From Nymphaea colorata (lineage: Eukaryota > Streptophyta > Magnoliopsida > Nymphaeales > Nymphaeaceae): a stretch of DNA of 64,000 nt. Location of the stretch: positions 2,365,503-2,429,502 of the forward strand of contig NC_045143.1 of the NCBI RefSeq assembly GCF_008831285.2, given 5' to 3'. This document shows, in pieces, positions 21,078 to 22,598 of the stretch. The position numbers were made by a program, and so were the translations under genes. The first letter of the stretch is position 1. Each line of letters starts with the position of its first letter. The notes below the pieces were generated by a model that was given only the letters and a program-made list of their open reading frames with translations, searched no databases and was not told the DNA's origin.

Positions 21078-21170
21078 AGTGGCTCCCAGAGTTCCCCCAA
21101 ACACTTCGGTCGGGCCACCACCAAGGGCAGCTCCACTGAAGGGAATGGAGGAACTCAAGGGGACTCCCAA
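21078..21170 (-). ncRNA. MIR395: MIR395 precursor hairpin (minus strand)
   Basis: Read on the minus strand, 21,109-21,089 gives a 21-mer beginning CCGAAGTGTTTGGGGGAAC, which is miR395 with C for U at position 2. The opposing 5' arm (21,156-21,134) begins GAGTTCCTCCATTCCC and pairs with it. The stem extends beyond the duplex (GGAGTCCCC against GGCTCCC). The mature sequence lies on the 3' arm, as in the known family. miR395 guides cleavage of ATP sulfurylase and SULTR2;1 mRNAs and is induced by sulfate starvation. A TATA-like box lies at 21,255-21,248. A second MIR395 points the other way 1.4 kb to the right. Confidence 0.86.
21089..21109 (-). ncRNA. miR395: Mature miR395, position-2 variant
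   Basis: On the minus strand the 21-mer differs from the common Arabidopsis miR395a sequence only at base 2 (C instead of U). Base 2 starts the seed, so target pairing there would lose one base pair unless the targets co-vary. The 5' base is C; the canonical form also starts with C. Confidence 0.82.
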
Positions 21171-21247
21171 CCTCATGCCATGCCTTTCTTGCTCCCTGAT
21201 TGTTAGTTCCTGCTGTGTGCTGTCTAAGGGGCAGCTCTTCTGCTCTG

Positions 21248-21255
21248 TACTTATA
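21248..21255 (-). promoter_or_regulatory. TATA-like box for minus-strand MIR395
   Basis: The minus strand reads CTATAAGTAC here, about 85 bp before the outer base of the hairpin. This would give a start near 21,225 and a short leader, typical of TATA-driven plant MIR genes. Motif and spacing evidence only. Confidence 0.45.
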
Positions 21256-21734
21256 GTCCTGCCAAAGGGATGCCTTGGTTACGAACTATGGTTTTGTTCA
21301 CCTGCCTCGAGTGTTGGCGACCTTCATTCTTGAGAGTGTATACATTGAATCTGGTCACATTTTGGGCTTCTGTGTGAAGGTGCGGAATCACACTGTGTGG
21401 ATGAAATTCTGTTCTGACCAACTATGGGGATATCATGGGCCTTTCTCTACCTTTTGGCAGACTTCTTTTCCTTTTTCAGATTTTGTGTCTATTTCCACCA
21501 TGTTGCTGACTCTGATTTTGTCGGTTAATTTTTGATGCTCAACAGCCATGATATCAACTGCAACCAAGCATACATGTGCCTTTGACGGTCAATGTGTGGT
21601 GTTCCACCAGTGAATGTCTTTACTCTGGAGAGGACACTCATAGTTTCAGGGATAAACTCAAGACAGAGTTTGGCTCATCCAGTGTAGTACCCTCAATTGG
21701 CTTGTTGCTGCTAAATTAGGAAGTGGGTGGCCTT

Positions 21735-21910
21735 GTTGCAGTAGCCTAGCTACATATAGGCCCACGTGGGCAGTTGCCCACGTCAACAACAAATTTTTTA
21801 TTTATTTTTACGATTTACTACAATTATTTTCTTATATATGTTGCGCCCCTTCAGAAATGAGAATTTGTATAACAGTGTCCCATAACGTAAAATTTTTAGC
21901 TCCGCCACGG
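21735..21910. repeat. Dispersed repeat, family B
   Basis: It contains 'cccacgtgggcagttgccca', an A/T core, 'gcgccccttcagaaatgaga' and ends 'tttttagctccgccacgg'. It sits between the two MIR395 hairpins, so an element has inserted into or been kept in their shared upstream region. Confidence 0.55.
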
Positions 21911-22454
21911 CCTTGCTGGTGGTGTTGCTGATGCACAATGCAACATTTTTGTGACCTGATTTGCATTTAGAAGCTAAAGCGAAGACCAACATTTTTATAT
22001 GTTTGTGTACAGATGTTGCATACCTGAGAGGACTTGGCAAGTATAGACTTGAAATATTTTCAAGTTGGGTGCACATAAAACTTCCTATATGGTTACTTTG
22101 ACACCCAAAATTTCTGCCTTTTCCCGCTTGACCCTTGAGACTGCAACGGTCTAATGCCCACTTTTTCCTTTTTCCCTTCTTCTTTTCCTTTTGGTGAATG
22201 TAAAGGATCTTTCTGTGAAAAAGACTGCAAAACTTTCCGCCACTAACTTTAGATATTCTCCGCACGCCAATGTCTAGGTTCAATGAACCAAATCTTCTCT
22301 CTAGAACTGAAGTTTTGCATGTCAACATTTACATATGCCCCTTAATTAAGTGAAAGAACTAGTTGTATGGAACCAGAATTCAAGAATATACTTCTCCGGA
22401 TAGCTTTTCTTAGGACAATTAGTAAAGATTTTGATTGCAAAAAGGTGGTTCTGC

Positions 22455-22462
22455 TATATATA
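22455..22462 (+). promoter_or_regulatory. TATA box for plus-strand MIR395
   Basis: TATATATA in the context 'tctgctatatatagaggga'. It lies about 50 bp before the hairpin, so the predicted start near 22,490 leaves a very short leader. Confidence 0.6.
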
Positions 22463-22507
22463 GAGGGACGAGGCTATCTGCAATCCACAAGCGACTAACT
22501 CATGTTG

Positions 22508-22598
22508 GGAGGTTCCAGGAGTTCCCTTCAAGCACTTCACTAGGAGGTCCTAGTAAAGGGCAGCCCATTGAAGTGTTTGGGGGAACTCTAGGAGCTGC
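22508..22598 (+). ncRNA. MIR395: MIR395 precursor hairpin (plus strand)
   Basis: The 3' arm, 22,568-22,588, is a 21-mer beginning TTGAAGTGTTTGGGGGAAC, matching miR395 except U for C at base 1. The 5' arm GAGTTCCCTTCAAGCACTTC (22,519-22,538) pairs with it. The stem continues outward (GTTCC with GGAGC). The terminal loop holds a smaller perfect stem CTAGGA/TCCTAG. All hallmarks of the family are present: mature on the 3' arm, short loop, 21-nt duplex. Known targets of the family are ATP sulfurylase and the sulfate transporter SULTR2;1. The nearby TATA box supports an independent transcript. Confidence 0.92.
22568..22588 (+). ncRNA. miR395: Mature miR395, 5'-U form
   Basis: The sequence is identical to canonical miR395a from base 2 to base 21, so target pairing in the seed is unchanged. 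A 5' U is favoured by AGO1 loading. Confidence 0.88.

Follow-up and report, generated by a model that had tools for sequence, protein, structure and literature searches.

Background

MIR395 genes are well known to occur in clusters, and the Arabidopsis clusters are also of mixed orientation. The 16 MIR395 genes described in maize are arranged in four clusters, each confined to one strand (PMC2773440). Short-range MIR clusters have been characterized as strongly one-stranded; within 1 kb, Arabidopsis, poplar, and rice have four clusters whose members lie on opposite strands, and polycistronic transcription has been considered possible for some rice MIR395 clusters (PMC2812943). Across four species, an average of 76.8% of tandem MIR copies were reported to lie on one strand (PMC3327684), and soybean has a tail-to-tail duplication of MIR395 and a head-to-head duplication of MIR159 (PMC3481472). 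The statement in the initial annotation that MIR395 genes are usually in tandem on one strand agrees with the available portions of the first three of these papers, with the qualification that other orientations are recorded in the last.

The UPE-box, with the consensus AG[G/A]T[T/A]CATTGAA[T/C]CT[A/G]GAC[A/G] (PMC9229004), is a 20-nt element described as bound by SLIM1 and by tobacco EIL2. In the available text of one review, the element is not accepted as the prime site of SLIM1, and the sulfur-induced genes of Arabidopsis that contain it number only eight (PMC4212615). Two further reviews, again as far as their available portions go, describe the control of miR395 by SLIM1 as direct or indirect (PMC4206189, PMC5344913). 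The promoters of sulfate-responsive miRNAs in tomato are reported to be enriched for a SLIM1/EIN3 motif (PMC12428225), which is in line with the SLIM1/EIL reading of the promoters discussed below.

The locus described here lies in the window, by which we mean the whole 64-kb stretch of DNA that was analyzed. With the MIR395 family (RF00451; Arabidopsis, rice, and maize) it shares the mature sequence and its position on the 3' arm, the hairpin, the clustering, and the target classes. Unlike the maize and rice clusters, it has two diverging hairpins, A and B, which probably have separate promoters, and only these two hairpins and one relic, C, were found. The single strand and close spacing of a tandem or polycistronic cluster are not seen, since A and B occupy different strands and only the relic is in tandem with A. 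Like the inverted MIR pairs reported from soybean (PMC3481472), the locus appears to reflect a conserved MIR gene that was duplicated locally and inverted; unlike the soybean MIR395 genes, which are described there as tail-to-tail, the present pair is head-to-head. It resembles the UPE-box genes (tobacco UP9C and Arabidopsis LSU1-3, APR1, and APR3), in which the 20-nt element is described as bound by SLIM1/EIL2 in sulfur-starvation promoters, and differs from them in that its boxes precede microRNA genes and have one and three mismatches to the consensus. The locus is thus a new member of a known family, uncommon in orientation but of no new kind. MIR395 is an ordinary gene family; the head-to-head arrangement with its putative paired switches is a modest new detail. 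The available portions of the literature searched describe no MIR395 genes arranged head-to-head in which each has a UPE-box, although we make no claim of absence from print.

The divergent MIR395 pair

Hairpin A, the canonical copy (22504..22603, + strand), and hairpin B, a diverged MIR395-like copy (21076..21175, - strand), were both located with RF00451 and by folding. They lie on opposite strands and point away from each other, separated by an intergenic spacer of 1,328 bp (21176..22503, no strand) that contains both upstream regions. Mature-like 21-mers, each one mismatch from the canonical CTGAAGTGTTTGGGGGAACTC, are present exactly where the initial annotation had placed them, at 22568-22588 (+) and 21089-21109 (-), and folding of both hairpins bore out the assignment of both mature sequences to the 3' arm. 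When the window was dinucleotide-shuffled 100 times, no match to the miR395 21-mer appeared. The divergent pair of miR395 hairpins is therefore confirmed. As a pair of MIR395 genes it is supported by the Rfam comparison, the folding, and the mature sequences, with B the weaker of the two. From these features we class A as an unambiguous MIR395 gene, B as a diverged copy of uncertain activity, and C as a relic.

Against RF00451, hairpin A scored 65.0 bits (cut-off 56, E 5.9e-12), which places it in the family; its opposite strand also scores, at 44.0 bits. The minimum free energy of A is -62.6 kcal/mol (z -8.62), and none of 200 shuffled sequences was as stable. Its mature miR395, UUGAAGUGUUUGGGGGAACUC, occupies 22568..22588 (+) with 20 of its 21 bases paired, and folding places the star arm at 22519..22539 (+). 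A single unpaired base in 21 is what is expected of a 3'-arm mature sequence with few duplex mismatches.

The relic, which the initial annotation did not include, lies 177 bp downstream of A at 22781..22828 (+). Local alignment to A identifies it as a third MIR395 copy, in tandem with A, of which a decayed 5' arm is left; the alignment score is 48, and the best score among 2060 background tiles taken from the window is 37. No mature arm can be recognized in it, and no Rfam match was obtained for it up to an E value of 1. A canonical, a diverging, and a dead member of one family thus lie next to each other at this locus. Just 3' of the relic is a small separate hairpin of 14 pairs (22857-22892, +). 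The fold of the segment 22780-22900 has a z of -3.3, with none of 200 shuffles as stable. This hairpin is possibly an inserted element that helped to destroy the relic.

MIR395 elsewhere in the genome

We searched the assembly (407.8 Mb in 783 contigs) for further copies. At E values up to 0.001, only A and B matched RF00451 among the best 46 of 73722 first-look candidates that were scored; a search that scores the best candidates only could let a weak further copy escape. The 20-nt miR395 core with zero or one mismatch was likewise found only in A and B, and hairpin A as a DNA query matched itself alone. With up to three mismatches, 27 core sites were found in the assembly, compared with 40 for a reversed control pattern, so matches with three mismatches are at background level.

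Loci were obtained for 20 of these 27 sites, and every one of them entered a crude fold screen; for five (L006, L008, L015, L017, and L022) the fold itself was displayed. We do not count L006 (C3:26143420, -) as a MIR395 gene: it has the core with two mismatches and could form a long hairpin, but by eye the MIR395 5' arm is absent. The RF00451 search of the genome did not list it.

Predicted targets

Two of the antisense core matches are, from their gene context, predicted miR395 target sites in the same genome. The first, with two mismatches, lies inside an ATP sulfurylase exon, within the encoded peptide SEFLQTLHF; the exon matched an ATP sulfurylase structure (PDB 4maf, E 1.6e-49) and the Pfam family PUA_2 (2.9e-28). 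The second has three mismatches and lies upstream of a sulfate transporter gene, its end 15 nt from an ATG that is in frame; later exon pieces of this gene matched the sulfate permease Pfam family (1e-11 and 6.7e-18) and the plant SULTR-like chain 9u9f (1.3e-15). The assignment of the second site is based on its gene context, because core matches with three mismatches do not exceed background in number. Both target classes expected of a MIR395 regulon, ATP sulfurylase and sulfate transporter, are thus represented by sites in the sequence of this genome.

Target mispairing was scored with penalties doubled at positions 2-13. For the ATP sulfurylase and sulfate transporter sites, the mature sequence of A scored 2.5 and 2.5 and that of B 4.5 and 5.5; at a third complementary site (L017) the scores were 3.0 and 4.5. 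The higher values for B arise because the C at its position 2 faces an A, and they suggest that B would be the weaker guide for the scored sites. A background for these scores produced by our script was set aside, since its loci had been preselected for similarity to miR395 or to the UPE-box.

Proposed origin and mechanism

We consider it probable that this is a small flowering-plant MIR395 locus created by local duplication and inversion, in which A and B are driven outward from promoters of their own, respond to low sulfate, and silence ATP sulfurylase and the sulfate transporter. The hairpins, their geometry, the relic, the UPE-like boxes, and the complementary sites come from the sequence, and transcription, processing, induction, and silencing are supplied from known miR395 biology. 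Local duplication, including an inversion, would have given rise to the canonical A, the diverging B head-to-head with it, and the dead tandem copy C. RNA polymerase II would transcribe A and B outward, most likely each from its own promoter. Under low sulfate, a SLIM1/EIL3-type factor would act at the UPE-like box of each gene and switch it on. Processing by DCL1 would release the 21-nt miR395 from the 3' arm, and the microRNA would pair with and silence the mRNAs of ATP sulfurylase and the sulfate transporter.

Hairpin B

The activity of B is uncertain. It could be instead that A is the sole working gene, that B is a pseudogene decaying towards what relic C has already become, and that the head-to-head arrangement has no regulatory meaning. 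We regard this as a credible alternative, although one that falls somewhat short of even chances.

Hairpin B scored 39.3 bits against RF00451, below the cut-off of 56 (E 4.9e-6 in a 4-kb search), and we file it as a diverged MIR395 homologue rather than as a certified member of the family. Its opposite strand scored 34.5 bits; as the reverse strand of a hairpin tends to score too, the covariance model alone hardly decides the strand, and B was assigned to the (-) strand by its mature sequence. The fold of B (-49.0 kcal/mol, z -2.47) was equaled in stability by four of 200 shuffles, and that of a slightly shorter segment (z -2.7) by two of 200. The comparison with shuffled sequence, on which the initial annotation had made its claim depend, is therefore clear for A and marginal for B. 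The same applies to its view that both duplexes pair well, which describes A accurately and B less so: the mature-like sequence of B, CCGAAGUGUUUGGGGGAACUC, on the 3' arm at 21089..21109 (-) with C at position 2 and CC as its first two bases where A has UU, has 17 of 21 bases paired, and its diverged star arm (21136..21156, -, by folding) also has four unpaired bases.

The criteria in use for plant miRNAs allow up to about five mismatches in the miRNA/star duplex, and B, with four unpaired bases on each strand, is within this limit. The symmetry of its mispairs speaks against a pseudogene, as does the retention of 19 of the 21 mature bases of A. The remainder of the two hairpins is identical at 53 of 71 aligned bases, so that any better conservation of the mature sequence of B falls short of significance (Fisher p 0.10). 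In the crude pairing screen, each locus was represented by the best of its eight folds; B was paired at 16 of 20 core positions, a figure equaled or exceeded by 11 of the 18 other core-matching loci. Neither the conservation test nor this screen favors B. Its sub-cut-off Rfam score, a fold only modestly above shuffled sequence, and the position-2 C that weakens pairing with all three scored sites suggest that B may be a dying copy, and relic C is evidence that copies decay at this locus. Against this stands a UPE-like box of its own.

UPE-like boxes

A search of the spacer for SLIM1/EIL3 sites, which the initial annotation had proposed, yielded two UPE-box-like sites. The one upstream of A (22271..22290, -) has one mismatch to the consensus and the one upstream of B (21338..21357, +) has three; neither is an exact match, and the two have the same orientation relative to their own genes. 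They are the only such sites in the 64-kb window at up to three mismatches, both fall in the spacer, and no further match appears in the window at four mismatches. None of 100 window shuffles contained two UPE sites, and among 5000 dinucleotide shuffles of the spacer, ten had one site and none had two. The assembly contains at least 74 UPE sites with zero or one mismatch, the box of A included, and the chance of one such site in the spacer is about 2.4e-4. An alternative EIL motif, AYGWAYCT, is absent from the spacer and is at its expected frequency in the window (14 compared with 15.3 expected). The SURE core GAGAC occurs once in the spacer, and is too short for this to have meaning.

We advance, as a tentative idea that we do not expect to hold in full, that SLIM1/EIL3 controls both MIR395 genes directly, by way of a single UPE-box at each, the inverted B having kept the switch while its guide shifted at position 2, which would give a sulfur-starvation microRNA with narrowed or altered targets. 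With two hairpins, the only ones found in the assembly, and a UPE-like box near each within a single spacer, the locus is a simple place to test direct control of miR395 by SLIM1.

The boxes could also be products of chance or of repeats and not drive A and B at all, which we think rather unlikely. The genome does carry UPE-like sites in its repeats. When the best 30 UPE sites were given as loci, 21 fell into repeat-like groups by flank similarity, from which it appears that UPE-like sequence has spread with repeats, and this makes the motif supportive rather than decisive. For the same reason we rejected as support the genome-wide excess of UPE sites (at least 218 at up to two mismatches, compared with at least 79 for the reversed pattern). 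Furthermore, only one of the seven non-repeat groups among the best sites is beside a recognized sulfur gene; inspection of 1.5 kb on each side, mostly by eye, revealed no recognizable sulfur gene for the remaining six, nor was one seen by eye at five further one-mismatch sites that were fetched. The boxes were first noticed by eye and scanned for afterwards, and of the three motifs tried (UPE, AYGWAYCT, and GAGAC) UPE alone stood out. On the other hand, this class of site had been named beforehand in the initial annotation, the pair of spacer sites was never reached in the 5000 shuffles, and the flanks of both boxes join neither repeat group, the box of A sharing at most 24 bp, itself included, with any of them.

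Neither predicted target site, in ATP sulfurylase or in the sulfate transporter, has a UPE site with up to three mismatches within 1.5 kb; one with four mismatches is near the ATP sulfurylase site.

Two other groups of UPE sites were observed. One repeat group comprises 18 loci with similar flanks (L024-L027, L032-L035, L037, L038, L040-L046, and L052), many of which have several UPE-like palindromes about 60-250 bp apart; this repeat may carry sulfur-response-like sites around the genome. The non-repeat group with a sulfur gene (L029/L030, C6:6480693-6480773) is a pair of exact UPE-boxes, 61 bp apart, that precedes a gene for serine acetyltransferase (SATase_N, 7.5e-35). This enzyme makes O-acetylserine, a proposed sulfur-starvation signal.

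Separate or shared promoters

Upstream of A, 41 bp before the hairpin, is a weak TATA-like element, TATATATA (22455..22462, +), of a pattern (TATAWAWA) that is common in the window, with 159 occurrences on the + strand. Upstream of B is the weak TATA-like sequence TATAAG (21250..21259, -), which fits neither of the two TATA patterns used. The distance from box to TATA-like element is about 165 bp for A and about 80 bp for B. The upstream regions of A and B gave no alignment beyond chance, with 103 of 493 random window pairs scoring as high. Start sites estimated from the TATA-like elements are about 1.2-1.3 kb apart. We disregarded a bacterial promoter and terminator scan as inapplicable to plants.

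The initial annotation had suggested a single shared upstream regulatory region of about 1.2 kb. Because each gene has its own UPE-like box and the upstream regions are unrelated, we disfavor this, and two self-contained sulfur-starvation promoters appear likelier than one shared one. That the spacer acts as one bidirectional promoter inducing A and B together is improbable: the divergent geometry and the two UPE-like boxes within a single 1.33-kb spacer would suit it, but the boxes are about 0.9 kb apart with each nearer its own gene, the upstream regions lack similarity beyond chance, and the distance between the estimated start sites, above 1 kb, exceeds the 1000 bp that one definition of a bidirectional gene pair allows, as worded in the available text of its source (PMC2648788). 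Joint induction of A and B by low sulfate is plausible given the two UPE-like sites.

Neighboring features

Genes recognized by Pfam matches elsewhere in the window are an LRR receptor kinase (3249-6374, -), a violaxanthin de-epoxidase-like gene (16649-17998, +), a splicing factor 1/BBP-like gene (28188-30515, +), a ketoacyl-CoA synthase-like gene (48290-49726, -), and a glycosyl hydrolase 17 with X8 (61522-62667, -). No sulfur gene was found among the ten reading frames of the window that were scanned against Pfam. Two tRNA-Gly (GCC) genes are in tandem at 60160-60230 and 60313-60383 (-), 153 bp from start to start, and differ at one of 71 bases.
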